The notes under the pieces were generated by a model. That model was given only the letters and a program-made list of their open reading frames with translations, made no database searches and was not told the origin of the DNA. From assembly GCA_958295735.1 (NCBI GenBank), contig OY282369.1:2890983-2954982 (forward strand): a stretch of DNA of 64,000 nt. Reading direction: 5' to 3'. The position numbers were made by a program, and so were the translations under genes. The stretch is from an uncultured Candidatus Cenarchaeum sp. (GTDB taxonomy: Archaea > Thermoproteota > Nitrososphaeria > Nitrososphaerales > Nitrosopumilaceae). Every line of letters begins with the position of its first letter. Within the stretch, counting starts at the first letter, position 1. This document shows positions 14,902 to 63,040 of this stretch, one piece after another.

Positions 14902-15073
14902 GCAGGGTGTGAGGTCAGCACCCCCCCAGTCACAGGCATGAAAACGCCTTCGCTGATCCAGATTCACGCCTGCAGAGCGGGGGGGTGTTGACCTCTACTG
15001 GCGCAGGTAGCCGATCGGCACGTCCGGCCCGCCCCCGAGCCTGCAGAGCGGGGGGGTGTTGACCTCGTACCGG
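14902..15073. other. Spacer region with two GGGGGGGTGTTGACCT repeats
   Basis: CTGCAGAGCGGGGGGGTGTT followed by GACCTC occurs twice (about 14970 and 15041). An inverted copy of the CAGAT/GGCGTTTTC element lies at 14936-14967. No gene is seen. Confidence 0.5.
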
Positions 15074-39166: not shown

Positions 39167-39360
39167 GCGGGGCCGGGGAGGGCGCCCTCCTCGCCCCCGC
39201 ACGCCGGCTTGACCCCGTTCGTGACGGACGGAGGCGGGCGCGGCCTGCCGCGTAGCAGTGCGCCCGCACCCCGCGCGGCTAGGCGTTCTTCACGCCCAAA
39301 ACCGCGGCCGAGGGGCGAGTCAAGCGATGCGGCGCGTGGGACGAGCTGCACGTCCCCGGG
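39167..39360. other. Intergenic region after the ribosomal operon
   Basis: GGAGGGCGCCCTCC at about 39177 is a perfect palindrome 10 bp after the last stop codon and may help termination. No gene is seen before the cas promoter. Confidence 0.4.
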
Positions 39361-39466
39361 CGCGAATCCAGACCGCGGGGGCGTTTTCGCGCGGGCGGGC
39401 GGCGGGTGCGGGCCCCCACACGCACGCACCAAAGAAGTTAAATCATGTTTGGTTCGCCAGACGACA
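39361..39466 (+). promoter_or_regulatory. cas3 promoter with upstream element shared with csb1
   Basis: CGCGAATCCAGA and GGGCGTTTTCGCGCG match the blocks upstream of csb1 and of the DUF4143 promoter region. GGTGCG and CGCACC flank the position taken by the TGACCT palindrome in the other two, but TGACCT itself is absent. AAGTTAAATC (centre about 39440) lies 27 nt before GTG 39467. Confidence 0.5.
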
Positions 39467-41923
39467 GTGGATTACGCCAATTTTGGGGAGTTTTTCAAGA
39501 AAGCGACGGGCTACGACCCATACCCGTACCAGTCGGAGCTGGCCGGCCGCGACCACATTCCGGACATACTAAACCTCCCCACGGGATCCGGCAAGACGGA
39601 CGCGGCAGTGCTTGCGATATACCTGTGGGGCCGCGTGCGCCCGCAGAAGAGAAAGGTTCCGCGCAGGCTGGTCTACTGCCTTCCGACCCGCGTCCTGGTG
39701 GAGCAGATCGTCGGCAAGATCGAGGGATGGACCAGGAATCTGGAGATCGCAGAAAGGTTCCGCGTCATTCCCATGCTGGGCGGCCACGAACCAGACAGGG
39801 AGTACAGGCTGCATCCAGAAAATGAGGCAATCCTGGTCGGGACACAAGACATGCTACTGTCCAGGGCGCTCAACAGGGGGTACGCCATGAACATATACCT
39901 GTGGCCCGTAGAGTTCGGGTTGCTGAACAACGACTGCTTTTGGGTGGTGGACGAGGTGCAACTGATGGGAAACGGCCTTGCCGCTACGGCGCAACTGGAG
40001 GCGTTCAGGAAGAAACTAGGGACGTACGGGATCCACAAGACGATGTGGATGTCCGCCACGGCAAACACGGACTGGCTAGATACGCCGGACTTTGATCACT
40101 GCGAGTGCATCGTCGCATCGAGCACGAACGGCGCCGACTCCGGCAGCCGGAGCAACAAAAGGCTCGATGCAAGGAACAACGCGCGCAAGGAACTCTCCTA
40201 CTTGGAACTTGCCGTGGAGAAGGACAAGTACAGCGGCAAAGACGCGGATGCGATCCTGAGCAAGCACGTGGACGGGACATTGACCCTGGTCATGGTGAAC
40301 ACCGTGAAGAGGGCCCAGTCCCTGTTCAAGGCGATACAAAAAACCGAAAAGGACGCGTTGTTGGTGCATTCGCGGTTCAGAAGGCGCGAAAGGAACAAGA
40401 TCAATACCGAGATCAAGCGCATCTCCGGCGACGCGCCTGGAAACATGATCGTGGTAGCCACGCAGGCGGTGGAGGCGGGAGTCGACATGTCTGCCAGGAC
40501 CCTGATAACGGAGATCGCCCCATGGCCGAGCATGATCCAAAGGTTCGGCAGGTGCAACAGGCGCGGCGAGCACGAACGGGCGGACATCCACGTGATCAGG
40601 CTGAACCAAAACGCGCACGCCCCGTACGAGACGGGCGACATCAGAATATCGGAGGAAAGGCTAGATGCCCGCGTTGGCCAGTCGGTGTCCCCCGGCTCCC
40701 TCGGCGGCCAGACCGACGACAAGAACGAGTACGATGCGGTGCTGCGGAGGCAGGATCTGGTCGACCTGTTCGACACCGTTCCAGATCTGTCTGGAAACCA
40801 TACTGACGTCTCTGGATTCATCAGGTCGCTAGAGACAACAAAAGACGTAAGCGTGCTGTGGCGCGAATGGGACGCGAGCGGCCCTCCCCCGGATCACCGA
40901 ACCCGAAGCGACGAGATATGCAATGTGCCCATATACGATGTCGAAAAGTTCGCAAAGAGCAACAACAAGGTGTGGGTGCGCGACCACATATCGGGAGAAT
41001 GGGTACAGAAAACCTCCCCCCTCTACCCCGGCCAGGAGGTCATGATACGGTGCAAAGACGGCGGATACAGCAAGGAGATCGGGTTCGATCTCTCGTCGCA
41101 CGACAGTGTAGAACAGGTAGAAAGACATGCTAACGACGACGACGCGGGAACGGATGGCAACATTGACGCCGATGCCGGCGGCGATGCGAACGACACGCAT
41201 GATGCGGATCACCAGTCGCAGTCCTCCGACTGGGTCACCCTCGCCGATCACACGTTTGCCGTGACGGAAGAGATGAAGAAAATCATCAGCGAGGTAGGAA
41301 CGGTGCAAGACAAAGAGGAAGTCCTGTCGCTGGCTGCAAAGTACCACGACCTAGGCAAGGCGCACAGCGTGTTCCAGCAAACGCTGTTGAAAGCTGCCGG
41401 CAAGGACACACCGAAGGGTGAGATCTGGGCAAAATGTCCGCGCAAAAACAGGCACGAACGTCCCAACTTTCGGCACGAGATCGTGAGTGCGATCGCATTC
41501 CGCAAGCTGAACCTGGACCTGGACAGGCCTACCGTCGATCTGGCGTCTTACCTCATAGCATCACACCACGGAAAAGTTCGCATGGCCATACGATCCCTTC
41601 CCAAGAAACGCAGAAACTCGTACGTAAACCCCGATGACGACTATGTGCAGGGACTCCCAACACGCGGTCACGAAATCCTGAAGATATTTTTGTCGCCAAA
41701 GCACGGATCAAAGGTGAGCAAAAACAAAATGAGCGTGGAGGGAATAGCGGATACCGTGAAAGTTGATGCGTCCATGGCCAAGATCGGGCAAGCGGGCGAC
41801 GGATCATGGTTGCAGGCCTCCACAGGGTTGCTGGAGGCCTACGGACCGCTCAGGCTAGCCTACTTGGAAGCGCTCCTTCGCGCTGCCGACATCAGAGCAA
41901 GCAGGGAGGGGAAAGCGGACTGA
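39467..41923 (+). CDS. cas3: CRISPR helicase-nuclease Cas3 (type I-G layout)
   Basis: 818 aa. It unwinds and degrades target DNA recruited by Cascade. The helicase comes first: motif I LPTGSGKT (GSGKT 40-44), motif II DEVQ (162-165), motif III SATAN (196), motif VI QRFGRCNRRGE. The HD nuclease follows at the C-terminus: YHDLGKAH (H627-D628), H near 670, HH near 700, D near 808. This helicase-HD order is typical of types I-G and I-D-like systems rather than the usual HD-helicase order. An acidic insertion (DDDAGTDGNIDADAGGDAND) lies between the domains. GTG 39467 is chosen for its TATA spacing. The TGA overlaps the likely CTG start of the next gene. Confidence 0.92.
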   Translation: MDYANFGEFFKKATGYDPYPYQSELAGRDHIPDILNLPTGSGKTDAAVLAIYLWGRVRPQKRKVPRRLVYCLPTRVLVEQIVGKIEGWTRNLEIAERFRVIPMLGGHEPDREYRLHPENEAILVGTQDMLLSRALNRGYAMNIYLWPVEFGLLNNDCFWVVDEVQLMGNGLAATAQLEAFRKKLGTYGIHKTMWMSATANTDWLDTPDFDHCECIVASSTNGADSGSRSNKRLDARNNARKELSYLELAVEKDKYSGKDADAILSKHVDGTLTLVMVNTVKRAQSLFKAIQKTEKDALLVHSRFRRRERNKINTEIKRISGDAPGNMIVVATQAVEAGVDMSARTLITEIAPWPSMIQRFGRCNRRGEHERADIHVIRLNQNAHAPYETGDIRISEERLDARVGQSVSPGSLGGQTDDKNEYDAVLRRQDLVDLFDTVPDLSGNHTDVSGFIRSLETTKDVSVLWREWDASGPPPDHRTRSDEICNVPIYDVEKFAKSNNKVWVRDHISGEWVQKTSPLYPGQEVMIRCKDGGYSKEIGFDLSSHDSVEQVERHANDDDAGTDGNIDADAGGDANDTHDADHQSQSSDWVTLADHTFAVTEEMKKIISEVGTVQDKEEVLSLAAKYHDLGKAHSVFQQTLLKAAGKDTPKGEIWAKCPRKNRHERPNFRHEIVSAIAFRKLNLDLDRPTVDLASYLIASHHGKVRMAIRSLPKKRRNSYVNPDDDYVQGLPTRGHEILKIFLSPKHGSKVSKNKMSVEGIADTVKVDASMAKIGQAGDGSWLQASTGLLEAYGPLRLAYLEALLRAADIRASREGKAD

Positions 41924-44313
41924 ACGACATAGCAATTGACGGGTGCTCCCCGGGCTCTCTCCTGCTCAGTCTGAAGGCGCTCGGCCTGTTCCGCATACTG
42001 GCGGAGCAGGAAGACGAGGGAGTGAGATCGAGGTGGGAGAACGACAAGTTCGTGATCAGTACTAGGCTGGACAGAGACGAGATTGTAAAATTCTTCCACG
42101 AGAAGTACGTTCCGACCCCGCTGATATCGCCGTGGAACGGCGGCAGCGGATTCATGGATCCGGACGTATCGGACATAGAAAGGATAGAAGAGTCGGGCGA
42201 AGAAAGGATGCGCGGATATGCAGAAGTTATAGCCAAGGCGAAGGGCATCTTGGGAGACGTCGTTCCCGAATACCGCAGTATTGCCGAATGCCAGCGCGAG
42301 TTCAGGCAGCCGGGCGGGAGCAAGGGAGCCAAGGCAAAGGGCATCAAGGATCGCATCAAAGATGTGAAGAAAGCCGTAGGGAGCAACAAGGAGATCGTGA
42401 TGAGGCGGTTGCGCAATGAGATGCCAGATTCGCTGGTTCCCTGGTTCGACGCAGCGTTCGTCACGGGCACGGAGCGTATCAGCTTCGGCACTGTGTTGGG
42501 CACGGGAGCGAACGACGGAAACTTTGAGATCACCGACAACTTTGCGCACTATGTGTGCATGTGTATCTTGGAGGAGAAGGAGAGAGACTGGAGCAAGAAT
42601 GCGCTACGCGGATCGCTGTTCGACACGGGCGCCGGAATGCGGGATGTGAGCAACGCGTTTTTCCATCCGGGAGGCTACCTCGGCCCCAACGCATCAAGTA
42701 CGCCAGGATTCAAGACCGGCAACCTGACAAACCCGTGGGACTTTATCTTGGGGATGGAGGGAACGCTGTTTTTCGCGGGAAGCGTGTCACGCCGAACCAG
42801 TTCGAGAAGGGCGGCGTTTCCGTTCACAGTGATCTCTACGCATGCAGGATACGGGACAGCCACGTCGGAGAATGCCAGGGGCGAGATCTGGATGCCGCTC
42901 TGGGACAGCCCGGCATCGTACAGAGAGATGAGGTACGTATTCAGGGAAGGCAGGGCACAGCTGGGCACAACGCAGTCGACGATCGGAGTGGAGTTCGTAA
43001 GAGCCTTGGCAAGCTTGGGCACTGAGAGGGGGCTGTCGGGATTCCAGCGGTTCGCCATACTTGAGAGGAAGGGACTCGCGTACGTGGCCAGCGACGCGGG
43101 AAGGATCCGCCCGGATCCGTCAAATGCCGTAAACGTGAACCTCCTTGCAGAACTAGATCCGTGGCTAGACAGGATAAGAAGCGGCGAGATGCCAAACAGG
43201 GTCAAGGCACTGCTGAGCAAAATTGATGGCGCCACGATCAGGTACTGCACAAGCCGCAACGCCGCCCATCTGCAGGACGTCCTGATCGCTGCAAGCGAGA
43301 TCGAATACGCGGTATCGCTCTCGCGGATGGCCGAAGACATCAGGCCCATGCCGGAAATCTCGCAGGAGTGGATAGACGCGTGCCACGACGGGAGCGTCGA
43401 ATTCAGGCTGGCCGCCGCGCTCGCTACCATGACTGATCGGGAGGACAGATTTCGGAGGCCGGAAGCAAAAGTCCGAACAGATCGGGCTGGCGCCCTTCCG
43501 CCAAATACTCCGCCCGACAGGGCCCCTCCCGAAGGGGAACAGCGCGCCCGCGGTCCCGGGGTGCGTGGAATCTACCCGATCCGGCACAACATGATGCCCG
43601 TCAAGGCGGCCAAGTCAGGAACGGAGTGGGCTCCCCGCAGTCCCAAGTTTTTGTGGAACGGTAACGACCCGATTAAGAGCATGATCAAGGTGCTGGAACG
43701 CCGTTGCCTGGACGCCCGCATGGCCAACGTGCCGCTGGCGCTGAAATCTCCGTTGCCCGCGTCCATCACCGACGTGCTGCAGTTCATAGAGGACGGGGAT
43801 CGGCTTGATCTTGGAAAGATCGGGAGGCTGGCGCAGGCCATGTCCGCGGTAGAAAAGGTGCGCTCAAAGGATGTAAAATACCACAACAGCAACGTGTTGG
43901 GGGAGATTCCCAGCCATGTCCCAGAGCAGTACATCTGCATCAAGACAAACTTTCCGCCACACTGGTACAAGGAATACGGCGCAATAAGGCGCAGATCGGC
44001 GCACGAAGGCAAAGCAGGACCCAAAGTCGGGGAGGGCGATGACCAGGACAGCATGAAGTTCGAGCCTAGCATGTTGCATCTCTTGAAGGCTGGAAGAATC
44101 GAGGCAGCCGCAGATATTGCTAGGCGCCGCCTGCGCATAACTGGAATCAACCTGGCTACGTATGCAGGCGGCACGGCCTCCGGCGGCGACGCGCACATGA
44201 ATGCAAGACAGCGGAGCCGGTTTGCGGCATCGATGCTTTTCCCCGTGCGGTATTCCGACCTCGGCAAGGTTGTGGACAGGATAAGGTTGCGCAGTGACGA
44301 GGACTACGAGTAG
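41920..44313 (+). CDS. csx17: Csx17, Cas8-type large subunit of type I-G Cascade
   Basis: 797 aa; the large subunit that should recognise the PAM. IAIDGCSPGSLLLSLKALGL followed by FRILAEQ is the typical Csx17 N-terminus. The frame has no ATG, GTG or TTG near it; CTG 41920 stands where the initiator Met belongs and overlaps the cas3 stop (CTGA), mirroring the GTGA overlaps elsewhere. ATG 41806 would add 38 residues from within cas3 and is unlikely. Other blocks: DNFAHYVCMCILEEKERDWS, NPWDFILGMEGTLFFAGSVS, FPFTVISTHAGYGTATSENA. Confidence 0.85.
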   Translation: MNDIAIDGCSPGSLLLSLKALGLFRILAEQEDEGVRSRWENDKFVISTRLDRDEIVKFFHEKYVPTPLISPWNGGSGFMDPDVSDIERIEESGEERMRGYAEVIAKAKGILGDVVPEYRSIAECQREFRQPGGSKGAKAKGIKDRIKDVKKAVGSNKEIVMRRLRNEMPDSLVPWFDAAFVTGTERISFGTVLGTGANDGNFEITDNFAHYVCMCILEEKERDWSKNALRGSLFDTGAGMRDVSNAFFHPGGYLGPNASSTPGFKTGNLTNPWDFILGMEGTLFFAGSVSRRTSSRRAAFPFTVISTHAGYGTATSENARGEIWMPLWDSPASYREMRYVFREGRAQLGTTQSTIGVEFVRALASLGTERGLSGFQRFAILERKGLAYVASDAGRIRPDPSNAVNVNLLAELDPWLDRIRSGEMPNRVKALLSKIDGATIRYCTSRNAAHLQDVLIAASEIEYAVSLSRMAEDIRPMPEISQEWIDACHDGSVEFRLAAALATMTDREDRFRRPEAKVRTDRAGALPPNTPPDRAPPEGEQRARGPGVRGIYPIRHNMMPVKAAKSGTEWAPRSPKFLWNGNDPIKSMIKVLERRCLDARMANVPLALKSPLPASITDVLQFIEDGDRLDLGKIGRLAQAMSAVEKVRSKDVKYHNSNVLGEIPSHVPEQYICIKTNFPPHWYKEYGAIRRRSAHEGKAGPKVGEGDDQDSMKFEPSMLHLLKAGRIEAAADIARRRLRITGINLATYAGGTASGGDAHMNARQRSRFAASMLFPVRYSDLGKVVDRIRLRSDEDYE

Positions 44314-44384
44314 GCAGTAGCAGAGTCTGATGGCGAGCAGTGCGGGAGCTCGCACGGCCGTGCCCACGAATTGACAAGGTTGCG

Positions 44385-44490
44385 CCGCCCTCCCCTCCCC
44401 CCCCCCCCGCTAGCCACCCAGCCCAGGGTCAGCCGCCGCCCTCCCCTCCCCCCCCCCCGCTAGCCACCCAGCCCAGGGTCAGCCGCCGCC
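44385..44490 (+). repeat. 50-bp direct duplication upstream of csb1
   Basis: CCGCCCTCCCCTCC, a C-run, then CGCTAGCCACCCAGCCCAGG and GTCAG occur twice with a 50-bp period. No ORF lies in it. Confidence 0.8.
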
Positions 44491-44499
44491 CACCACCAC

Positions 44500-44613
44500 G
44501 CGCGAACCCAGATAAACGAGGGCGTTTTCACACCCGCACCCTGCAGGTACGTGACCTCGTACGCACGCACTCCGATCTTAAAGATTTATTAACAACCCAA
44601 ATTGCTCAACCGC
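44500..44613 (+). promoter_or_regulatory. csb1 promoter with TGACCT palindrome
   Basis: CGCGAACCCAGAT, GAGGGCGTTTTCACACCC, then the palindrome GTACG-TGACCT-CGTAC (44547-44562), then TATA AGATTTATTAAC (centre about 44587), 27 nt before ATG 44614. The palindrome arms differ from those at 14850 by paired changes (GTGCG/CGCAC), as expected for a selected operator. csb1 and csb2 thus have their own promoter, separate from cas3-csx17. Confidence 0.6.
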
Positions 44614-45564
44614 ATGCTTGATGATGCGGAAAGGTTGCTCATTGAAGTCGAGCTAAAACCAAAGCAGGGCTCCAGATTCCAGCCGACGGGGTTCCCCGAT
44701 CTCGGCGCCGCCGAGTTTCAGGTTCAGGGTGAGACAAACACCATCTTGGTAGAGTCGGCCCAATCCATGGCCAACCGGCTCGAAGCGGTCTGCATGAAGA
44801 ATGATGCGGACGTAGTTGACGAGCTGGAAGGCATACCAATGATCAAAGTGGTTGATGCAGACGGCAATCCGCTGACGAACTCCGTCACAGAAGCACACAG
44901 GATAAACTCCCACTACATAATGGAAGGAGGATCGGACGAAGTCAAAGAACGCTTCAAGGGCGCCCTTGAAAAAGGCGACAGATGGGACACAGGCATACAG
45001 AGCGTGGCGCGGGTGCTGTTCGAGATTGACGTGTGCTCGCTGTTGCATGGGTTTTGGATTTCCAAAAAGGACGTAGCTGGCGGCCGCGTAAGGCTCCGGC
45101 GCGCCATTTCCTCGTTCATTGAAGCCAAAAATGCCAGCAGTGCGATAAGCGGTGGCGTAAAACTCGATCATGTAAACCCCGGCAAAGACGAGGACGCGGG
45201 CGGCGCCAAAGAGGGACAGGGAAACATCCCGTACCCACGCGTTGAGTATACTGCCGGCTCGATCACCGCGTACTTTAACGTAGACCTGCAGCAGATACGC
45301 AGCTACGGCTTGGAAAAGAAGGAGACTGATTTTCTCGTAAACCTCGCACTGTGGAAGATTCGGAGATTCCTAGAGTCGGGACTACGCCTTCGCACCGCGT
45401 GCGACCTCATGGCGAGCGAGGAACTTCGGGTAGTTTCGCCGGCCGGTTTTGAGTTGCCCAGCATGAAAGATCTTGATCGCGATGTGGAAAAATCCGTAGC
45501 CGCGTGCAAGCAGTCTTGGAAACCGCTCGGAGAGATAAAGTATACTAAAAAGAAAGGAGCATAA
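44614..45564 (+). CDS. csb1: Csb1, Cas7-type backbone subunit (type I-G)
   Basis: 316 aa. Signature blocks are LIEVELKPKQGSRFQPTGFP near the N-terminus, LVESAQSMANRLEAVC, SHYIMEGG, and SVARVLFEIDVCSLLHGFWI with RLRRAISSFIEAKN. It should line the crRNA in Cascade. ATG 44614 lies 27 nt from the TATA box; TTG 44602 is the only in-frame alternative. Seven nt separate it from csb2. Confidence 0.9.
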   Translation: MLDDAERLLIEVELKPKQGSRFQPTGFPDLGAAEFQVQGETNTILVESAQSMANRLEAVCMKNDADVVDELEGIPMIKVVDADGNPLTNSVTEAHRINSHYIMEGGSDEVKERFKGALEKGDRWDTGIQSVARVLFEIDVCSLLHGFWISKKDVAGGRVRLRRAISSFIEAKNASSAISGGVKLDHVNPGKDEDAGGAKEGQGNIPYPRVEYTAGSITAYFNVDLQQIRSYGLEKKETDFLVNLALWKIRRFLESGLRLRTACDLMASEELRVVSPAGFELPSMKDLDRDVEKSVAACKQSWKPLGEIKYTKKKGA

Positions 45565-45571
45565 CAGATAC

Positions 45572-47029
45572 ATGTTTTCCCTGTCACTCAGGTTCGTGGC
45601 AGGCCGTTACCATGCCACCAAATGGGGGAAGAACGTAAACGAGGGAGTCGTGGATTGGCCCCCATCGCCGTGGAGACTGTTGCGTGCCATGATCTCGGCG
45701 TGGAAAACAGACCCAAACGGCCCCGCAGAATCCGATGTTTGGCCAATTTTGAGCACGCTTGCAGATAACCCAGTCCGGTTTTACCTTCCGGCGGCCACGC
45801 AGGCGCATACCAGACACTACATGCCCGCCGGCGGCACAAGCACCACCAAGATAATTGACTCGTTCGTGGCCTTAGGGCCGGAGAACCGCGTAATCGTCAC
45901 TTGGAACGACGTCACGCTGGACGAGAGCCAGGAAAAAACACTGGACGGCATACTTGCTCGCATAGGATACCTCGGAAGGGCGGAATCGTGGTGCGAGGTA
46001 CGAAGAATCGATCATCAGGGCACCCACAACTGCGATCCTCTCAACGGCATCGTGCCAGGCAACAAGAGCATAACCGACGTACTCGTCCCGACAAAAGGTA
46101 TAACGTTGGAGGAACTGTGCGTCACTACGGAAGATCTGCATCGGCGGCAGATCATATTCCCCCCGGGCACCGCGAACGCGAGCTATCTGCGCCAGTCCGA
46201 CTGTTTTGATGCGAAACCGAACATAACCGTGCGCGCCCATCCCGAAGTCACCGTTATGCGGTATGCCGTAGTGGGAAACGTGAGGCCAAAGATCACGGAA
46301 TCGGTGTCCGTGGGAGACTTCATCAGGCGTGTTGCGATGTCCAAGTACGGCCGCAGGAACGGCGGAGGTGCCTCCAAGGCCATCTCGGGAAAGGACGGCA
46401 GAGGCGGCTACCTAAAGTCCGGAAACACGCATGCGTTTTTCATTCCCACGGACGAGGACGGCGACAACGTGCTGGATCACATGACCGTCACGTTTGCGAA
46501 GCCCATGGAAGAGGCGGATTTTTACGCGTTGGCGGCCATGGAAGACATACGATATCCCGGTAAATGGTTCGGCTTGGCGTTCCAGCGGCGCGGCAAGGCC
46601 GACGACTTCAAGGATGTTCCGATACTGCAGAGTGCGAAAAAGTGGGAATCGGCCACCCCGTTAGCTCTTAACCGGCATCCGAAGGGTAGGTTTCGCGACT
46701 GGTCGTCAGCAGAAGCCATAGAAGAAGCAAAAACGCAAATCCGACGCGAAGTAGGTGCCAGGTACGGAGAGACGGCAACGATCAAAAGCCTTGGAGTGAA
46801 AGGCGGCAAGTCGAAGATGCGGTGTGGAGTGATGCCAATACAGTTCAAGCGCTGGAGAAAAGACGGAATTCCGGGATTCGGGGCGTATGACGTATCAATA
46901 GAGTTCGAGTCGGCTGTGCGAGGTCCGCTAGCACTCGGCCATGCTGCGCATTTCGGCTTGGGTTTGTTTGTTCCATCACGATCGCGTGGCATGCCGCCGC
47001 CGAAAAAATTGACGAGTGCCGCAACCTGA
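45572..47029 (+). CDS. csb2: Csb2, Cas5-Cas6 fusion (type I-G)
   Basis: 485 aa. SLSLRFVAGRYHATKWGKNV and VDWPPSPWRLLRAMISAWKT are the Cas5-like N-terminus of Csb2. The C-terminal RAMP domain ends with GHAAHFGLGLFVP, the glycine-rich loop of Cas6-like crRNA endonucleases, with His residues that could be catalytic. It should cut the repeat transcript and cap the crRNA 5' end. Its last codons and stop lie inside a degenerate CRISPR repeat (47008-47043). Confidence 0.9.
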   Translation: MFSLSLRFVAGRYHATKWGKNVNEGVVDWPPSPWRLLRAMISAWKTDPNGPAESDVWPILSTLADNPVRFYLPAATQAHTRHYMPAGGTSTTKIIDSFVALGPENRVIVTWNDVTLDESQEKTLDGILARIGYLGRAESWCEVRRIDHQGTHNCDPLNGIVPGNKSITDVLVPTKGITLEELCVTTEDLHRRQIIFPPGTANASYLRQSDCFDAKPNITVRAHPEVTVMRYAVVGNVRPKITESVSVGDFIRRVAMSKYGRRNGGGASKAISGKDGRGGYLKSGNTHAFFIPTDEDGDNVLDHMTVTFAKPMEEADFYALAAMEDIRYPGKWFGLAFQRRGKADDFKDVPILQSAKKWESATPLALNRHPKGRFRDWSSAEAIEEAKTQIRREVGARYGETATIKSLGVKGGKSKMRCGVMPIQFKRWRKDGIPGFGAYDVSIEFESAVRGPLALGHAAHFGLGLFVPSRSRGMPPPKKLTSAAT

Positions 47030-47109
47030 TCGTTGCGGAAAGTGGCCTTAACAAACCATACGGCGCACTCAGCGTGCTTCAAAGGCTGCAACATGCGAGT
47101 TGCGGAAAA
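47008..47109 (-). CRISPR. Two degenerate repeats at the cas-proximal end
   Basis: 47008-47043 keeps the repeat's stem CCGCAAC/GTTGCGG and AAAG tail, but its loop is CTGATC and its first 12 bases are unrelated; it includes the csb2 stop codon. A 32-bp spacer follows, then 47076-47109 (GCTTCAAAGGCTGCAACATG, then CGAGTTGCGGAAAAG), a repeat with several changes. Degenerate repeats normally mark the trailer end. Confidence 0.75.
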
Positions 47110-47112
47110 GCG

Positions 47113-48626: not shown

Positions 48627-48848
48627 GCTTCAGTGGGGCCGCAACATGAGGGTTGCGGAAAGCATGACGGGCATCGCCCTGTTGAACACTATCCCCGCCA
48701 CTGGATCCATCACCACCGCGTGTTGCGGAAAGCATGACGGGCATCGCCCTGTTGAACGCTGTAGCTGCCGCTGGGCATTATTCAGCCTCGCGCGTTGCGG
48801 AAAGCATGACGGGCATCGCCCTGTTGAACGCGGTTGTCTGGCTTTAAT
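48627..48848 (-). CRISPR. Short array segment with an off-register duplicated repeat block
   Basis: A near-consensus repeat (48627-48662, two A-to-G changes) is followed by a 36-bp block made of its last 11 bases (GTTGCGGAAAG) and 25 bases of the next spacer (CATGACGGGCATC, then GCCCTGTTGAAC). This block recurs exactly at 48652, 48722 and 48794, separated by segments of 34 and 36 bp. After the last copy come 11 bp and then GCTTTAAT (48841-48848), the start of the repeat that continues at 50306 beyond an inserted IS. Confidence 0.8.
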
Positions 48849-50305
48849 GGGGGTAATGCAGAATTCACCATATTGTCGACACAAGCTCACACGATAGGTT
48901 AAAGCCCCCGCCCGCGATGCCATGGCATGCCGAACTCGGCCAAGCAGGAGTTGGCGATACTCCGGAACGAGAACAAGCGGCTGGAGGAAGAGCTGGAGCG
49001 CGAGAGGGCGCTCTGGCCGTCGCCCTCCACCGCGGGCAGGCTCGCGCGGAACTGCCCCCAGCTCATGCACGCGCTCGCGATGCTGGACACCGTCCTGGCC
49101 AGCGACAAGCTCCTGAAGGCCTGCACCGGGATGACGCGGAAGCATTTCGACTACCTGCTGCCCCTGTTCACCGAGGAGATCGAGCGCAGGAAAAAGACCC
49201 CGCTGTTCAGGGACGGCGGCCCGGGCGCGTCGGATCCCGGCAACATGTGCAGTCTCGAGCGCAGGCACGCCCTGCTCCTCGTCATCATGCGCTGCAAGAC
49301 CGGCGCGACGCAGGGGCATCTGTCCGTCCAGTTCGGGGTGGACCAGAGCACCGTCTGCAGGTACGTCAAGGCGTGCATGCCGATCCTGGAAGCGATCCTT
49401 CCCACGCCGGACAAGTACTCCAAGGAGATAGCCGCGTGCAAGACGGACGAGGAGCGCGTGAAGTTCCTTACCGACGGCTGCAAGGGCAGGGGCAAGGACA
49501 AGGGCAAGATGCTGCTGGACGGGACCCGGACGCCCCGCGCGCGGCCTTCCGACGGGGAAGAGCAGAAGGACTTCTACACCCGCAAGAACAAGATGCACTG
49601 CCTCAACACGGTGGCGGGCGCCAGCCCGACGGGGATGCTGCTGTACGCCAGCGAGACGCTCCCCGGCAGCCGGCACGACATCGTCATGGTGGGCGGGCTG
49701 GGCAAGGTGTTCCCGAGCATGGCGGACCCCCGCACGCCCGAGAAGGAGAGGATAACGGTCGTCGGGGACGCGGGGTTCCAGGGATTGGGGACGCGCCTTC
49801 CCGGGATAATCCCGGTGACCCCGCACAAGAGGAAGCCGGGGAAGGATCTCACCGCGGCCCGGAAGGAAGCGAACAGGAAGCTCAGCAGGATAAGGTCGCT
49901 GATCGAGCGCATCTTCGAGAGGATGAAGAGGTACAAGATACTCCGCGTGCCGTTCGAGGGGACCCCGGAGCAGTTCCACCATGTATTCAACACCGTGGGG
50001 GGCCTGGTCAACCTGGTCCGGGCGTTCGACGAGATCTCCAGCGGCGCCGGCCTGCACGGGTCCCTGGCAACCAAGTGGCGCGGGCAGCGGCTGAAGCGGC
50101 CCCCGCGCCGCTGACGCAGCGCGGGACTTCCGGCGCCGGGAATTCCCGCGGCCAGGGTAGCATCGCGTTTTATTCCGGGGCACTTTGCAGTGCTGCGAGC
50201 CCGCGCGCCCCGGATCGGCAAATTGCGCGGTTGTTCACCGCGCCGCGCGAATACGCGCCGCGCAAAGCGTGTCATTTGTCACTCGTGAAAATACGCATTA
50301 TCTCC
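48849..50305 (+). mobile_element. IS5-like element inserted in a CRISPR repeat
   Basis: The ends GGGGGTAATGCAGAAT (left) and AATACGCATTATCTCC (right) are imperfect inverted repeats. AAT is present on both sides (48846-48848, 50306-50308), a 3-bp target duplication inside the repeat (GCTTxAAT^GGGG). Length 1457 bp. A related element sits at 61536-63040 at the same repeat position. Confidence 0.75.
48927..50114 (+). CDS. IS5-like DDE transposase (DDE_Tnp_4 type)
   Basis: 395 aa. An N-terminal coiled coil is followed by an HTH (QFGVDQSTVCRYVKACMP) and the DDE domain: D in MLLDGTRTPRARPS, then TLPGSRHDIVM, D in VVGDAGFQGLGTRLPG, and E in LIERIFERMKRYKILRVPF. ATG 48927 lies 26 nt after GGTTAAAG. 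The related element at 61536 has the same promoter block (ACAAGCTCACAC, then GGTTAA), so the first residues MPNS are conserved. All motifs are intact. Confidence 0.85.
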   Translation: MPNSAKQELAILRNENKRLEEELERERALWPSPSTAGRLARNCPQLMHALAMLDTVLASDKLLKACTGMTRKHFDYLLPLFTEEIERRKKTPLFRDGGPGASDPGNMCSLERRHALLLVIMRCKTGATQGHLSVQFGVDQSTVCRYVKACMPILEAILPTPDKYSKEIAACKTDEERVKFLTDGCKGRGKDKGKMLLDGTRTPRARPSDGEEQKDFYTRKNKMHCLNTVAGASPTGMLLYASETLPGSRHDIVMVGGLGKVFPSMADPRTPEKERITVVGDAGFQGLGTRLPGIIPVTPHKRKPGKDLTAARKEANRKLSRIRSLIERIFERMKRYKILRVPFEGTPEQFHHVFNTVGGLVNLVRAFDEISSGAGLHGSLATKWRGQRLKRPPRR

Positions 50306-53300
50306 AATGGGGCCGCAACATGAGAGTTGCGGAAAGAAACTCCGAGACCATACTTGTTGGACGGGGGAGGTCGCTTCAATGGGGCCGCAACATGAGAGTT
50401 GCGGAAAGCCCGAACTCCAGGCGGAGGAGGCGGACAGCTCCAGGGCTTCAATGGGGCCGCAACATGAGAGTTGCGGAAAGCCGACACGTGGAATTCGATT
50501 GGGACGGCGGCAGGTTCGCTTCAATGGGGCCGCAACATGAGAGTTGCGGAAAGGCTTCGTCGAATCGCCTGGCGTCGATCAGGTTGTCGCTTCAATGGGG
50601 CCGCAACATGAGAGTTGCGGAAAGCGGGATGGTGCGCTACTGTCCGGACTGCCGCTCGGACGCTTCAATGGGGCCGCAACATGAGAGTTGCGGAAAGGTT
50701 CTGCGCCCTCGTCTGGTTGGCGTGCGCCCGCGGGCTTCAATGGGGCCGCAACATGAGAGTTGCGGAAAGATTCAAGAGTTAGGCGAACATGCGGGCCTGA
50801 ACGCTAGCTTCAATGGGGCCGCAACATGAGAGTTGCGGAAAGGTAGCCGCGCGCCTTGTCGACATAATCACCGTACTTGCTTCAATGGGGCCGCAACATG
50901 AGAGTTGCGGAAAGGCTGAGGAAGTTGCGGTTCCGGAGGAGGAGGTTAAGGCTTCAATGGGGCCGCAACATGAGAGTTGCGGAAAGACTCTGGAACGCCG
51001 GCCGGGAAAGGATGGGCGCGGGCTTCAATGGGGCCGCAACATGAGAGTTGCGGAAAGACGTACGCCCAGAGCAGTTCCTCGGGGTCCGTTTGCTTCAATG
51101 GGGCCGCAACATGAGAGTTGCGGAAAGCCCGAAAAATGCTGAGGGCCCTGCCGGGCTGCGGGGCTTCAATGGGGCCGCAACATGAGAGTTGCGGAAAGCC
51201 GACGTTATGCCTTCCCCGCCCGGAACCACCGCGCTTCAATGGGGCCGCAACATGAGAGTTGCGGAAAGCACGGCCGCCCTCGTCGAGATAAAAGCGTCCG
51301 GGAGCTTCAATGGGGCCGCAACATGAGAGTTGCGGAAAGACGACCTGGATGCCGTGGTGGAACGGCAGGAAGCGCTTCAATGGGGCCGCAACATGAGAGT
51401 TGCGGAAAGAAGGCGCCAGATCGCTGAAACTACGCGGGCCCTCCGCTTCAATGGGGCCGCAACATGAGAGTTGCGGAAAGTGAGAGCGCCGGAGGCGTTC
51501 GCGTCGAGGTCGGCCGCTTCAATGGGGCCGCAACATGAGAGTTGCGGAAAGACGGCATGACCGGCCTCCAAACATGCGATGTCGTGCTTCAATGGGGCCG
51601 CAACATGAGAGTTGCGGAAAGTCAAAGTGGCAGTTGGGGCAGCTGGCCAGGTCGGTGCTTCAATGGGGCCGCAACATGAGAGTTGCGGAAAGCAAAATAG
51701 ACACTATGACAAAAAAAGAACTGCAGGCTTCAATGGGGCCGCAACATGAGAGTTGCGGAAAGCCTCGCGCTTCGATTCGTTCCTCACGAAGCTCGAGCTT
51801 CAATGGGGCCGCAACATGAGAGTTGCGGAAAGGAGTGGACGCTCTCGCGGGTGAGCGTGAGCGAGTAGCTTCAATGGGGCCGCAACATGAGAGTTGCGGA
51901 AAGGCGTGCTGATCGATCGGGAAATCGACGGCGAGCTCGCTTCAATGGGGCCGCAACATGAGAGTTGCGGAAAGGCGAACTGGCGCGGCTCCGGCGGAAG
52001 GCGCGCGTGCTTCAATGGGGCCGCAACATGAGAGTTGCGGAAAGTCGCGCTCGCGGACGGTCGACAATTGGCAGCCCGAGCTTCAATGGGGCCGCAACAT
52101 GAGAGTTGCGGAAAGGCGTGTCCCTCGGTCGGCCGGGTGCGGTGACACGAGCTTCAATGGGGCCGCAACATGAGAGTTGCGGAAAGTACGACGACGTGGC
52201 CGATCGGGACTTTGATCAGACCGCTTCAATGGGGCCGCAACATGAGAGTTGCGGAAAGCCCGCCGGGCGCCATAATGAAAGACGTGGCCAGAGCTTCAAT
52301 GGGGCCGCAACATGAGAGTTGCGGAAAGTGCGCCGCCCTCTCTGGGTTCCATCCGGGGCCGCGTGGCTTCAATGGGGCCGCAACATGAGAGTTGCGGAAA
52401 GCCGCCTCGATGATCGGCTTGGGGACGGCGATCTGGCTTCAATGGGGCCGCAACATGAGAGTTGCGGAAAGATGCTGGAGCACGAGGCGGTCTCCATAGA
52501 GGAGGCCGCTTCAATGGGGCCGCAACATGAGAGTTGCGGAAAGCGCTGCGCGCGCAGCACAAGATAGACCAGGCGACCGCTTCAATGGGGCCGCAACATG
52601 AGAGTTGCGGAAAGCGGGCGGGGCGCCGCCCGACCCGAACGTAGAATGAATGCTTCAATGGGGCCGCAACATGAGAGTTGCGGAAAGAGGGGCGCTATGC
52701 AGTCATAGGCATGCGCGTGCAGGGCTTCAATGGGGCCGCAACATGAGAGTTGCGGAAAGATCGCCGACCACGTGCACGCCGGAGATGAGGCGCGGCTTCA
52801 ATGGGGCCGCAACATGAGAGTTGCGGAAAGTGTTCATACCTTACCCCCCCGCACATGGGGGTAATGCTTCAATGGGGCCGCAACATGAGAGTTGCGGAAA
52901 GTGGCCCACCCCGTCCGCGTTTCCGCGTCCAGCCAGCTTCAATGGGGCCGCAACATGAGAGTTGCGGAAAGTCTGTGCTCATGCTTTAGGGTACCATTCA
53001 TGGGGGGCTTCAATGGGGCCGCAACATGAGAGTTGCGGAAAGGAGATTTCCGAAATGATGGACGACACCGCGGCGAGCTTCAATGGGGCCGCAACATGAG
53101 AGTTGCGGAAAGCTGAGGGCCCGCGCCGAGGGCAGGGGAACCGCCGTGCTTCAATGGGGCCGCAACATGAGAGTTGCGGAAAGTTTCAGGATCTGGCGCC
53201 TTATTCGGTCTATCCAATGCTTCAATGGGGCCGCAACATGAGAGTTGCGGAAAGCCTGACATATACCGCCTCGGGAAAGAGGGGCTGGAAGCTTCAATGG

Positions 53301-55201
53301 GGCCGCAACATGAGAGTTGCGGAAAGTGTATATATGCACTATGTTTAGGCCTCAAATCTCAAAGCTTCAATGGGGCCGCAACATGAGAGTTGCGGAAAGC
53401 AGGTTCGACACGCGCAACCCAAACCCCTTCTCGGAGCTTCAATGGGGCCGCAACATGAGAGTTGCGGAAAGACGAGGCGGTGGAGGAAATGAAGCGGATC
53501 GGGGATGCTTCAATGGGGCCGCAACATGAGAGTTGCGGAAAGACGAGGAGGCGGAAATTAAAAAGGCGCAGGCGGAGGAGCTTCAATGGGGCCGCAACAT
53601 GAGAGTTGCGGAAAGTTCGTGCGGAACCACGGTACAGATAGCCGCAACGACGCTTCAATGGGGCCGCAACATGAGAGTTGCGGAAAGTATCACCTACACG
53701 AAAGGAACCGCCATCTCCTGCGCCGCTTCAATGGGGCCGCAACATGAGAGTTGCGGAAAGTCGTAGACGGGCCCGGCGGCCTGCCGCCCAAAAAGCTTCA
53801 ATGGGGCCGCAACATGAGAGTTGCGGAAAGCGGGGCGGGCGGAACGACGCCACGCTCGAATACGTGCTTCAATGGGGCCGCAACATGAGAGTTGCGGAAA
53901 GTCTTCCTCCTCGTCTCCCTCTGCAACGAAGTCTACCGGCTTCAATGGGGCCGCAACATGAGAGTTGCGGAAAGACACTCTGCTGATCTTGCGCAGTTCC
54001 GGCGAATCGCTTCAATGGGGCCGCAACATGAGAGTTGCGGAAAGTATTAAAGCGGGAATCCTTGAATGGTCTGACGTGGCTTCAATGGGGCCGCAACATG
54101 AGAGTTGCGGAAAGTCGTCCAGTTCGTCCAGCAGATGATCGGGAGGATGCTTCAATGGGGCCGCAACATGAGAGTTGCGGAAAGCGCGTACGATCTAGGT
54201 CTGGACGATCTTGAAACGAGCTTCAATGGGGCCGCAACATGAGAGTTGCGGAAAGTCACGGTCGGTACCCGAATCCCCCCCGACCAGTGTGCTTCAATGG
54301 GGCCGCAACATGAGAGTTGCGGAAAGCGGCCGGCATGGAATCGGCGGGCGCCGCCGCGGTAGCTTCAATGGGGCCGCAACATGAGAGTTGCGGAAAGATT
54401 TGGCCCGACGTCCACTGGAACGCAGTCGCGGCGCTTCAATGGGGCCGCAACATGAGAGTTGCGGAAAGGAGCGCGATGTCCGGCAGACCATCGGCCGGCA
54501 CCGGCTTCAATGGGGCCGCAACATGAGAGTTGCGGAAAGGCGGAGGACGGCCGCGTACCCCTGGGTGTCGGCCGAGCTTCAATGGGGCCGCAACATGAGA
54601 GTTGCGGAAAGCGGGTCATCGAGCTCGCCAAGAACTCCACGGGCAAGCTTCAATGGGGCCGCAACATGAGAGTTGCGGAAAGTCGGCGGTGACCACGCAG
54701 CGAAGCTTCTTTTGCCCCGCTTCAATGGGGCCGCAACATGAGAGTTGCGGAAAGCCCAACTGGGTAGCCAACTCCACTATCAGGTTGCCGCTTCAATGGG
54801 GCCGCAACATGAGAGTTGCGGAAAGCGGAGGTCGCGATGGCGCGCGTGCAGGACACGGTGGGCTTCAATGGGGCCGCAACATGAGAGTTGCGGAAAGCGT
54901 CACCAAGGGCACCCACCTCAAGGTGCACGCTTGGCTTCAATGGGGCCGCAACATGAGAGTTGCGGAAAGTCATCACGGCGGGCTTGCCGACGAACGATCC
55001 CATGCTTCAATGGGGCCGCAACATGAGAGTTGCGGAAAGCCGGAACGTTGACTGGTACCGCGGCCTCCCCAGCGCGCTTCAATGGGGCCGCAACATGAGA
55101 GTTGCGGAAAGTGATCGAGCGCGGAACTAATTTGGGGTTAACGGACGCTTCAATGGGGCCGCAACATGAGAGTTGCGGAAAGGCCTGGAGTATGGTAAGT
55201 A
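50306..55201 (-). CRISPR. Type I-G CRISPR array, segment 1 (69 repeats)
   Basis: The repeat is 36 bp: GCTTCAATGGGG, stem CCGCAAC, loop ATGAGA, stem GTTGCGG, AAAG. I count 69 repeats, with start-to-start distances of 70-73 bp, i.e. spacers of 34-37 bp; the first repeat lost its 5' bases to the IS. Repeats are essentially identical. Read on the minus strand the repeat ends ATTGAAGC, resembling the ATTGAAAC-type 5' handle of many crRNAs, so I assign the minus strand with the leader to the right, outside the window. Spacers show no obvious shared sequence. Confidence 0.95.
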
Positions 55202-56501
55202 TAGCCACGGAAATAAGTAACTGAGCTGGTCTTCGGCGGCGGAATAAGTAATTGAGCTAGTCTGGGGGCTGATTCGGGCCGTTTTTCGCGGGTGCCTCGC
55301 CCCTAGTCGCGAGGGATCAAATTGCGCAATAATTAGGAAAAAACGCCCGGCCGATCCGGAACGTTCATTTAGATTGTTTTCGAGGGCACGGCATGCTGAC
55401 CCGCGCGGAGCTCATGCACGCCCTCGCGACGGAAAAGGATCCCCGCAAGAGGACGAGGATCCACGGAATCTGCAGGATCGTGATCGAGAAGGAAAGCTAC
55501 AGGGAAGTCGCGAGGATCATGTACAAGTCGTACAACACGATCAGGGCGTGGCACGAGCGCTACCTGCGGGAAGGGCTCAAGGGCCTTAGCGATCGCCCCC
55601 GCCCCGGCCGCCCGCCCAAGATAACAAACCGGAAGCTCACCGAATTCATGGAAGAGGGGGACACGCTGTCCAGGTTCCCGAAGCTGCTCGCGGAGAAGGT
55701 GAAGGAGAAGACCGGCATCGCGTACAGCGAGGGGGCGGTGCGCCGCAAGCTGCGCGACGGCGGCTATTCCCCCAAGGTCCCCGAGCCGGTGCACGCCAGG
55801 AGGGAGTCGGTCGAAAACGTAGCAAAGTGGCAAAAATGGCTGAAACATTGGCTCCAAAAGGCGGAAAACGACGGATTTCTGCCGTTCGTGGTGGACGAGA
55901 GCAGCCTGCTGCACGACTACCAGCCCAGGCGGAGCTTGTGGACGCTGGTCGGGAAGCGGGCCTACGAGTGGTACACGGGGAACCACACGCGCAGGATGAT
56001 CTTCGGGGCGCTGTCCATGAACGGCGACCAGGTGTTCATGAACGCGCAGAGGTTCGACACGGAGACGACGATCAAGTTCTTCAGGCGCGTGACGGCACGG
56101 CACGGCCCGGCGGCGCTGCTCGTGGACAGGGCGACGCCGCACCGATCGATCGGCACGAACGAGTTCGTAAAGGACAACGAGGGACTCGTGCGCATCGGGT
56201 ACTTCCCCACCGGGTGGCCCGAACTCAACCCGGTCGAATCCTGCTGGAACACGCTCAAGCGGCAGCCGCACGCGCACCAGGTCTACCCGACGGTGGACGC
56301 GAGGATCGCGAAGTCGATGGAATACCTGAGGACGCACCGGTTCCACCTGGACGTCACGCGGTTTCTGTTCAGGGAGCCCGTCGCGAAGATCATCTGACGG
56401 CGCCGCGCGCGGTCGGGCCCCGCGCGTGCCGGCGCGCCGCGTCCGCAAAAACAACCCGAATGAACGCCCGCGATTAGCTCAGTTACTTATTTACGCGGCT
56501 A
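55202..56501 (+). mobile_element. IS630-type element inserted in a spacer
   Basis: Inverted ends of about 26 bp (TAGCCRCGKAAATAAG, then TAACTGAGCT) are flanked by TA on both sides (55200-55201, 56502-56503), the TA duplication of IS630/mariner-type elements. Removing the element restores a spacer of exactly 34 bp. A second, imperfect copy of the inner end (GGAATAAGTAATTGAGCT) lies at about 55240. Confidence 0.85.
55393..56397 (+). CDS. IS630-family transposase
   Basis: 334 aa. N-terminal winged HTH (YREVARIMYKSYNTIRAWHE; LSDRPRPGRPPKIT), then the DDE domain: D in FVVDESSLLHDY, D in ALLVDRATPHRS, E in WPELNPVESCWNTLKRQ, the IS630 signature. ATG 55393 lies about 24 nt after a TATA-like CATTTAGA. 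The gene is intact. Confidence 0.9.
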   Translation: MLTRAELMHALATEKDPRKRTRIHGICRIVIEKESYREVARIMYKSYNTIRAWHERYLREGLKGLSDRPRPGRPPKITNRKLTEFMEEGDTLSRFPKLLAEKVKEKTGIAYSEGAVRRKLRDGGYSPKVPEPVHARRESVENVAKWQKWLKHWLQKAENDGFLPFVVDESSLLHDYQPRRSLWTLVGKRAYEWYTGNHTRRMIFGALSMNGDQVFMNAQRFDTETTIKFFRRVTARHGPAALLVDRATPHRSIGTNEFVKDNEGLVRIGYFPTGWPELNPVESCWNTLKRQPHAHQVYPTVDARIAKSMEYLRTHRFHLDVTRFLFREPVAKII

Positions 56502-59500
56502 TATGATCCCGAGTGATGGCTTCAATGGGGCCGCAACATGAGAGTTGCGGAAAGTAATCGCCGGCGCGCGGCTGCCACGCGCCCCAGTCGCTTCAATGGG
56601 GCCGCAACATGAGAGTTGCGGAAAGAAAACCAGCGCTTCGGGGATGGGGGCGTTCATCATGCTTCAATGGGGCCGCAACATGAGAGTTGCGGAAAGAAGG
56701 TAAAGGCGTTCAGGGGATATTTCAAGACGTTGGCTTCAATGGGGCCGCAACATGAGAGTTGCGGAAAGCCGACCACGGCAACGGCACGCGAGAGTGGACG
56801 TGGCTTCAATGGGGCCGCAACATGAGAGTTGCGGAAAGCAAGTGTTCTTTTGCGTCCAATCGGCGACCGACTGGCTTCAATGGGGCCGCAACATGAGAGT
56901 TGCGGAAAGGAGGGCGAGGCTAAGGTGGTGGAGTTTCTTACGGATCGGCTTCAATGGGGCCGCAACATGAGAGTTGCGGAAAGTCGCGCCCGACACGTTA
57001 TCGCCAGTAGAGGATGAACGGCTTCAATGGGGCCGCAACATGAGAGTTGCGGAAAGCCGCATGGCGTTCGAGCTCTGCGAATGGGAGCGCATGCTTCAAT
57101 GGGGCCGCAACATGAGAGTTGCGGAAAGAGGAACGCGCCGCGGCGCAGGCCGCGAACGCGGCCGCTTCAATGGGGCCGCAACATGAGAGTTGCGGAAAGT
57201 CGAGGATCTGGCCGACATGCGCGAGCAGAAAGAGGGCTTCAATGGGGCCGCAACATGAGAGTTGCGGAAAGCCAGCCGCAGGTAGCGGCCGGTGACCACC
57301 GGGTTCGCTTCAATGGGGCCGCAACATGAGAGTTGCGGAAAGAAAGGCACCGGCCCAAACTCGATTTGGATGAGCGGGCTTCAATGGGGCCGCAACATGA
57401 GAGTTGCGGAAAGTCGGGGATGGGGGCGGCGGGGGCCGTCCACTCCCACGAGCTTCAATGGGGCCGCAACATGAGAGTTGCGGAAAGCCGCACGTCCCGC
57501 AGCACGGCCAGCGGCCGACGGGGCTTCAATGGGGCCGCAACATGAGAGTTGCGGAAAGGTGGCCGTGATGGTGGACGTGGTTCGGATCGACCGGCTTCAA
57601 TGGGGCCGCAACATGAGAGTTGCGGAAAGATGCATCCGTATGATGCCGGCGTCACCGTTATCGAGGCTTCAATGGGGCCGCAACATGAGAGTTGCGGAAA
57701 GCATTATTACCGCGTTGGCCGTCTGCTCCGAGCCCTTGCTTCAATGGGGCCGCAACATGAGAGTTGCGGAAAGTCTTCTGGACCCCCTCGTCGGGAGCGA
57801 ACGACATGATGCTTCAATGGGGCCGCAACATGAGAGTTGCGGAAAGCTGTTCTGATTCACGCTCCGGATGCATGGCTATCCTGGTGCTTCAATGGGGCCG
57901 CAACATGAGAGTTGCGGAAAGTGATGAGCGGGGAGAAGGTCATGCAGCAGATAGAGCTTCAATGGGGCCGCAACATGAGAGTTGCGGAAAGTGCTTTCCG
58001 CTTCCACGAACATAACGGGACAGATCGCTTCAATGGGGCCGCAACATGAGAGTTGCGGAAAGACGGCCAGAGTCACTAGCGAGTACCTGAAACAGAAAGC
58101 TTCAATGGGGCCGCAACATGAGAGTTGCGGAAAGCCCATTTTATCCCTCGATACAAAAAGTGTGTGATATGGCTTCAATGGGGCCGCAACATGAGAGTTG
58201 CGGAAAGCATACGATTGCAAGAACCTATCCCCCCCGCCTTCAGCTTCAATGGGGCCGCAACATGAGAGTTGCGGAAAGATATCTACTCACGTGTTCTTTA
58301 CTGAGCACGTGCAGCTTCAATGGGGCCGCAACATGAGAGTTGCGGAAAGACATCCTTTTGTGTACCGACGAATGCAGCCTTTCAGCTTCAATGGGGCCGC
58401 AACATGAGAGTTGCGGAAAGATAAAGACAACGCAGCCTAGTCGGGGCGCTAGGTCGCTTCAATGGGGCCGCAACATGAGAGTTGCGGAAAGCCATCAACT
58501 TCCCTATCGCCTGCCAGGTGTCGAGGCTTCAATGGGGCCGCAACATGAGAGTTGCGGAAAGACAGCAACCTCGTGGTGAAGGACGGCAGGGAGTACAGCT
58601 TCAATGGGGCCGCAACATGAGAGTTGCGGAAAGTCGTACGCCTCGTCCATCCAACGCTTAAGCGCGCCGCTTCAATGGGGCCGCAACATGAGAGTTGCGG
58701 AAAGGCGCAGCTGCCGATGCAACGCAGGCCGTTCAATTGCTTCAATGGGGCCGCAACATGAGAGTTGCGGAAAGCATCTGCCGATCGGTAGAGGCATTGG
58801 ACGATATTGCTTCAATGGGGCCGCAACATGAGAGTTGCGGAAAGCAACACGCGGAAAGAGCGAACAACCATATCGATATTTGGCTTCAATGGGGCCGCAA
58901 CATGAGAGTTGCGGAAAGCGCGGTACAGCAGATCAACGACCGCGCCGCGTACGAGCTTCAATGGGGCCGCAACATGAGAGTTGCGGAAAGTGCAAGGAGC
59001 TACAGTACCAGATTCGGTAGAGCCTGCTTCAATGGGGCCGCAACATGAGAGTTGCGGAAAGCATTCATGCGGCTATCTTCCTGCTCTACAATTATGGCTT
59101 CAATGGGGCCGCAACATGAGAGTTGCGGAAAGCGAACTGGAACCAATCGTGTCTCCCGCGCCGGAAGGGCTTCAATGGGGCCGCAACATGAGAGTTGCGG
59201 AAAGCCTGGCGCCGCAAGTATTGCGACCGCCTCGCGTGGCTTCAATGGGGCCGCAACATGAGAGTTGCGGAAAGTACTTTGTTCCTCGGGACCTCGGCGG
59301 CCGGCACCGCGCTTCAATGGGGCCGCAACATGAGAGTTGCGGAAAGCGCCAGCAGCTCACGACGTACACCGAGGACGCGACGGCTTCAATGGGGCCGCAA
59401 CATGAGAGTTGCGGAAAGATATGTGGAACGAGGTGAAGGGACGCGTTGATTAAGCTTCAATGGGGCCGCAACATGAGAGTTGCGGAAAGTCTTAAGTTGC

Positions 59501-61535: not shown

Positions 61536-61605
61536 AGAGTTAATGCGTTTGGCTCGTTGCGGCGACTGCCCGCCCCGCGCGGCCCGAATGTCGCGCCCTT
61601 GGAGA

Positions 61606-61722
61606 ATAACAGCGCAATCTGCCGGCCCGGGACGCGCGGACTTGGAATAACAGCGCAATCTGCCGGCCCGGGACGCGCGGACTTGGAATAACAGCGCAAT
61701 CTGCCGGCCCGGGACGCGCGGG
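61606..61722. repeat. 41-bp tandem repeat inside the IS
   Basis: ATAACAGCGCAATCTGCCGG followed by CCCGGGACGCGCGGACTTGGA recurs at 61606, 61647 and 61688 (about 2.8 copies), downstream of the transposase stop. A single related block occurs at the same place in the element at 48849 (GCCCGCGCGCCCCGGATCGG). Confidence 0.85.
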
Positions 61723-61794
61723 CTCGCAGCATCGCAGGATGCCCCGGAATCTGTGCTGTGCGGCGGTTTCGCGCGGCGGGAATCCCGCGCCGCG

Positions 61795-62964: not shown

Positions 62965-63040
62965 GCCATACTGTCGCGCCATGGCTCCTTAACCCGTGGT
63001 GTGAGCTTGTTTTGGCATTTGGTCAATAAACATAAACTCT

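Follow-up and report, generated by a model that had tools for sequence, protein, structure and literature searches.

Non-canonical spacer integration as the very probable origin of a displaced repeat-spacer block in an archaeal type I-G CRISPR array

The question raised by this locus is how a 36-bp unit that straddles the border between a CRISPR repeat and its spacer came to stand three times in a row at the spacing of ordinary repeats. The locus lies in the window, that is, the whole 64,000-nucleotide stretch of DNA analysed, and window positions are used for the features of Table 1. In our view the block is, with high probability, the product of two successive non-canonical spacer integrations by the host's own type I-G Cas4-Cas1/Cas2, within a promiscuous integration that extends over the genome.

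The displaced block and its surroundings

The displaced unit, R' (GTTGCGGAAAGCATGACGGGCATCGCCCTGTTGAAC), is present in three exact copies whose starts are 70 and 72 bp apart, and it has no other occurrence in the genome. It is composed of the last 11 bp of a variant repeat, R0, and the first 25 bp of the spacer belonging to that repeat. The longest stretch shared by the three copies measures exactly 36 bp, the copies being preceded by G, T and C and followed by A, G and G respectively, and the segments that separate them, N1 and N2, are of 34 and 36 bp. The third copy is followed by 11 bp, GCGGTTGTCTG, after which GCTTTAAT opens the next repeat. The original spacer, S0, thus measures 25 + 11 = 36 bp, and the distance from 48627 to 48841 is 214 bp, or three periods. 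If both inserts and two copies of R' are deleted, an ordinary period is restored: R0 followed by a 36-bp spacer and then the next repeat. The original prediction, which had described a 36-bp block of 11 bp of repeat and 25 bp of spacer occurring three times around 34- and 36-bp segments, was reproduced exactly in coordinates and lengths, and the spacing that it equated with the array period agrees with the period of 71.56 bp found for the array. A chance origin of three exact 36-mers at the array period, with discrete inserts between them, is excluded. The three copies of R' carry no mutations in 108 bp, compared with 3 in 72 bp for the flanking repeats R0 and R4, a weak difference (p ~0.06) which hints that the integrations took place after the spacer had grown old.

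Table 1. Features of the displaced block and of its surroundings (window positions unless stated otherwise)
Feature	Position	Strand	Remarks
Ectopic scar candidate	14968..15066	n/a	28-bp exact direct repeat, offset 71
Ectopic scar candidate	20751..20854	n/a	32-bp direct repeat (2 mismatches), offset 72
Type I-G effector genes cas3g, cas8g/csx17, cas7g/csb1, csb2	39209..47029	+	NCBIfam profiles
Variant repeat R0, older neighbour of block	48627..48662	-	Differs at 2 positions from the 528 identical repeats; last 11 bp = start of R'
R' copy 1, the displaced unit; 36 bp, 11 from the repeat and 25 from the spacer	48652..48687	+	+ orientation of action probable
Insert N1, 34 bp	48688..48721	+	Copy of host ureC (32/34); TTT PAM on its left in ureC
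R' copy 2	48722..48757	+	
Insert N2, 36 bp	48758..48793	+	Source searched for, not found
R' copy 3	48794..48829	+	
Last 11 bp of original spacer S0	48830..48840	-	25 + 11 = 36 bp
First 8 bp of next repeat (GCTTTAAT), broken by IS5-like element	48841..48848	-	Repeat resumes at AATGGGG near 50306
IS5-like element, DDE_Tnp_4 transposase, ORF 48927-50114	48849..50305	+	AAT target duplication; in repeat adjoining block
Main array	50301..64000, on to genome 2981980	-	Leader, cas2, cas4-cas1 at far end

The array as a whole comprises 533 matched repeats, 528 of which are identical, and its other 525 spacers are 33-39 bp long with a mode of 35. The host genome is a single contig of 3.17 Mb, in which archaeal-type ribosomal protein genes together with ureC suggest an ammonia-oxidising archaeon. 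The cas genes are those of type I-G, with the effector genes to the left of the array and cas2 and a cas4-cas1 fusion to its right on the minus strand (NCBIfam matches TIGR02621, TIGR04113, TIGR02570, TIGR02165, NF049935 and TIGR01573). On the minus strand the repeat ends in ATTGAAGC, as it does in a relative whose leader adjoins cas2 and in ~100 other arrays. This ending and the leader beside cas2/cas4-1 indicate that transcription of the array proceeds on the minus strand and that spacers enter at the right, so that the block stands at the oldest, or trailer, end, offset from R0 by 25 bp leader-ward relative to transcription. Degenerate repeats are found near the block at 47007 and 47074, and the two repeats that adjoin it, R0 and the next one, are 2 and 1 bp away from the consensus. 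A second, related IS5-like element (~61535 to 63039) interrupts another repeat at this very AAT, which establishes AAT as the target duplication, and the CRISPR repeat looks like a preferred target of these elements. An IS630-family transposase lies within an array spacer (window 55183-56518), an IS66-family transposase between the degenerate trailer repeats (window 47074-48510), and the array contains two copies of a run of 14 consecutive spacers (genome ~2955268-2956237 and 2960989-2961958).

The insert N1 matches the host's own ureC along its whole 34 bp with two mismatches and with no homology past the borders, and on this match it is best described as a captured discrete piece of host-type DNA. 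The original prediction had named inserts matching host DNA in the manner of ordinary recombination as evidence against it; what was found is a homology to ureC that stops at the borders of N1. On the plus strand the flank in ureC is TTT, and TTG in a relative, the minus-strand flanks being CGA and CCA; the PAM side of N1 is thus the plus strand, opposite to the orientation of the array. The PAMs obtained from overlapping array spacers are TTT, TTC, TTG and TCC, or TTN in three of four pairs, with TTA in a gapped fifth pair judged by eye, and they correspond to the TTN reported for type I-G (PMC9638904). The protospacer check suggested with the original prediction therefore gave a source with a PAM of the TTN class for N1, and no match for N2. 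The 20-bp cores of N1, N2 and R' had no match in IMG/VR, nor did two 8-kb stretches of the array match phage or one of these two match 14 relatives. The two inserts are more alike than most spacer pairs by two global scorings (0.1-0.6% of array pairs are as alike), while 26% of array pairs are as alike in a local scoring.

Direct repeats at the array period across the chromosome

A chromosomal match to the CRISPR repeat at 110117 led to structures of the same kind outside the array. Here 36 bp are duplicated exactly on either side of a 37-bp insert (110117-110225), whose first 17 bp are the end of the CRISPR repeat and whose other 20 bp are absent from the present array. Non-tandem direct repeats were therefore scored by offset in stretches of the genome after tandem-like repeats had been filtered out. 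The sample amounts to 1.10 Mb, ~35% of the genome; some of the second batch was selected close to known scars, and the density estimate is based on the first, roughly even batch (52 in 0.86 Mb). In that first 0.86 Mb there is a single sharp peak of offsets, at 70-73. The full 1.10 Mb contains 67 direct-repeat pairs at offsets of 69-75, compared with ~0.9 per offset elsewhere, and these fall into 64 unrelated families with a modal duplication of 36 bp and a modal insert of 34-37 bp. Coding periodicity cannot favour the offsets 70, 71, 73 and 74, which are not multiples of 3, and at these 44 pairs were seen where 1.0 was expected. The mean scar offset is 71.33, close to the 71.56 of the array. 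Extrapolation from the first sample gives a number of the order of 150-200 scars for the whole 3.2-Mb genome.

Seven inserts, N1 among them, have a full-length chromosomal copy that ends at, or within 1-2 bases of, the borders of the insert. TTN is found beside the source, on the plus side, for three of the seven including N1, which is suggestive only. Matches of inserts at 3050886, 1292514 and 404122 were not counted as sources, being copies of a larger dispersed element, and one further candidate source was left uncounted as too weak a match. Blocks with three copies and two inserts, like that of R', are also present at 2989807 and 2052209. Scar-like structures were also seen within multi-copy dispersed GC-rich elements, at 404122, 1290843 and 1205568, at 1292514 with 1253836, and at 3050886 with 2327981.

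The ectopic targets have a GC content of 82%, as against 69.5% for the genome and 67% for the inserts. Hairpins in them are not enriched over GC-matched DNA. Their resemblance to the native leader and repeat ends appears weak, with a mean score of 10.68 (n=31) against 9.31 for GC-matched DNA (z ~4.2) under a scoring chosen post hoc. A crude ORF mask covers 89% of all sequence in this GC-rich DNA, so that coding and intergenic placement are not separable.

Other genomes were compared in the same manner. In 400 kb of a genome of the same genus that lacks this cas4-1, no pair at these offsets has a duplication longer than 24 bp; the GC content of that genome is 57% as against 69%. In 160 kb of a Nitrosopumilus sp. 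with an I-G-type array there are just two repeat pairs at offsets of 40-130; both have an offset of 73, which lies within that organism's own array period, and one of the duplications is exactly 36 bp. In 243 kb of a planctomycete with an I-G array, KatS3mg102, three scars lie immediately upstream of a cas2-like gene, and two further candidates were seen. The three (stretch positions 2500-3027) are different ~36-bp duplications side by side, with inserts of 38-39 bp and with similar right ends (TCGTTCTGCACC, TCGTTCTGCGCC and CGTCTCTTGCGC). In both of these hosts the scar offsets track the host's own array period. The original prediction had also suggested looking for border-crossing blocks in other I-G-type arrays, a search that came back empty: no second such block is present in 103 further arrays whose repeats end in the same way (~2,400 repeats), most reports being artefacts of locus edges. 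A scan of named genomes for Cas4-1 found nothing.

Origin of the block and choice of the displaced site

We infer the agent and the order of events to be as follows. Cas4-Cas1/Cas2 would have taken a 36-bp stretch across an old repeat/spacer border for the first repeat, and a ~35-bp prespacer joined at both ends of the displaced stretch would have led to its duplication. The same neo-repeat would then have been used a second time, giving three copies of R' and two inserts. Two integrations are favoured because the duplication has the length of the repeat, the inserts have the length of spacers and N1 is a discrete piece of ureC, and the original claim that the adaptation complex twice duplicated a displaced site gains support from the same facts. 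The block thus combines the marks of a neo-CRISPR: a repeat-length duplication, a spacer-length insert, a discrete fragment from elsewhere and a native-like target. The stem of R' is 4 bp, compared with 7 bp in the native repeat, and its processing into crRNA seems doubtful.

Why this register was chosen may be explained if the displaced stretch was read in the inverted orientation as a pseudo leader-repeat, a reading that we regard as moderately supported and somewhat to be preferred. Windows were scored against the leader end and both repeat ends, with a scoring picked after the site had been seen. In the plus orientation R' comes first after the two true repeats among ~290 unit windows in three of four scoring schemes, and in the fullest scheme it is among the 17 best of all 80,642 array windows, 9 of these 17 being at this same register. 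The score of the displaced site is 16 when inverted, against a mean of 9.31 for GC-matched DNA, and no other target site matches the native ends as well. On the plus strand, GAGG/GTTGCGGAAAG...CCCTGTTGAAC mimics the leader sequence GAGG/CTTTCCGCAAC...CCCCATTGAAGC, where the slash marks the junction. The internal repeat junction CATGAGA/GTTGCGGAAAG, on the other strand, in turn mimics GGGAGG/CTTTCCGCAAC at the leader junction. An A-to-G change in R0 creates GAGG right before the displaced junction and improves the match to the leader, and the spacer S0 contributes GTTGAAC at the right distance. In two other scars the motif orientation and the PAM side are without clear agreement. The statement in the original prediction that sequence identity of the repeat is not required holds insofar as a differing sequence was used, although sequence would still matter somewhat if, as is probable, the site was recognised as an inverted imitation of the leader and repeat ends.

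A different possibility, and the one proposed originally, is that the array's own ruler slipped, in the normal orientation, while the spacer was still leader-proximal. The exact conservation of the array period speaks for it, as does the imperfect fidelity of I-G Cas4/1 in vitro, the Methanosarcina barkeri enzyme having chosen the correct site in 80-90% of events on the leader side and 60-70% on the spacer side (PMC10504553). However, the displaced site is poorly native-like in the array orientation, where it scores 7 instead of 16 and in one scheme ranks 147 of 290, and the PAM side of N1 favours the inverted orientation. Ectopic scars are moreover present where no array exists, and the unmutated state of R' relative to R0 and R4 points, weakly, the same way. 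We therefore consider a length measured from a slipping point unlikely, if still deserving of serious thought, and with a poor match in the array orientation and the same signature widespread outside the array this part of the original prediction is the less favoured one. An integrase of another kind (casposase-like, an orphan Cas1 or an unknown short-fragment integrase) might instead have made the scars both in the array and elsewhere, as could be argued from the very high GC content and weak repeat-likeness of the ectopic targets and from the location of some scars within dispersed repeated elements. This seems improbable in a genome where a single Cas1 was found at E <= 1e-20, as the duplications and inserts have the repeat and spacer lengths of this very array, the other hosts follow their own periods and one insert carries CRISPR repeat sequence.

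The genome is rich in tandem repeats, and the duplicated run of 14 spacers shows that the array itself has undergone duplication, so that ordinary recombination, replication slippage or tandem duplication has to be weighed. A tandem duplication would copy the intervening DNA, yet the inserts differ from each other, are of spacer length and derive in some cases from distant genes, and the peak survives the tandem filter and stands at offsets not divisible by 3. We find such an origin very hard to credit. Least credible of all is that the block consists of four normal repeats whose two middle members have degenerated in their first 25 bp. The degenerate repeats beside the block at the trailer end and a length of three periods would suit this reading, but it needs three adjacent spacers identical over their first 25 bp, and each of the two middle repeats would have to lose 25 of its 36 bp but keep the other 11 unchanged, while the adjoining repeats are nearly at consensus. 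Two non-canonical integrations by Cas4-Cas1/Cas2 hence remain our explanation of the block.

Relation to known systems and meaning

Cas1-Cas2 of E. coli is known to integrate spacers off target, in a non-canonical manner (Nivala, Shipman and Church 2018, Nat Microbiol 3:310, as cited in PMC11788318 and PMC9456107), and the original remark that no case of such a displacement had been described is to that extent overtaken. As far as those citing accounts describe them, the type I-E neo-CRISPRs of E. coli resemble the scars reported here in that prespacers enter outside the array, a repeat-length target is duplicated and the sites resemble the native locus. They arose upon overexpression, whereas the present ones belong to type I-G and occur by the dozen in one natural genome and in several hosts, and one lies within an array, where a repeat-spacer chimera was made and used twice. 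A few putative natural cases, in Yersinia pestis and Sulfolobus islandicus, were reportedly noted in the E. coli study as well. In type II-A systems, ectopic acquisition takes place at a downstream repeat once the leader anchor is lost. It is similar in that integration occurs away from the first repeat, but there whole repeats are used in register, while here a repeat-spacer chimera was duplicated.

The nearest biochemical parallel concerns the I-G system of M. barkeri, which shares the Cas4-Cas1 fusion with Cas2, a 36-bp-type repeat ending in ATTGAAGC and the TTN PAM (PMC10504553, PMC9638904), and in which the PAM end is joined at the spacer side (PMC10504553). The infidelity reported for it was seen in vitro only, and neither genome-wide scars nor reused displaced repeats are described (PMC10504553). 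In the literature searched, the extent of the scarring in natural genomes, its association with type I-G, the repeated use of a neo-repeat and the repeat-spacer chimera within an array appear new.

Taken at this strength, the observations concern natural genomes and not an overexpression strain: a CRISPR integrase uses, and then reuses, a sequence unlike its repeat, and Cas4-Cas1/Cas2 appears to integrate at many places other than its proper site. The location of the ureC-derived spacer outside a proper repeat may explain the persistence of this self-derived sequence, which, should the orientation reading hold, would also run opposite to the transcription of the array. The genomic signature, direct repeats at an offset of repeat plus spacer, lets ectopic integration be counted in any genome, and the cost of adaptation to the host becomes testable. 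It is likely that promiscuity is natural to type I-G adaptation complexes, that in some hosts they place ~35-bp pieces of host-derived and other DNA chromosome-wide with 36-bp duplications, and that they would thereby act as a general mutator and as a source of reusable repeat units, which suggests a route to new arrays with new repeats.
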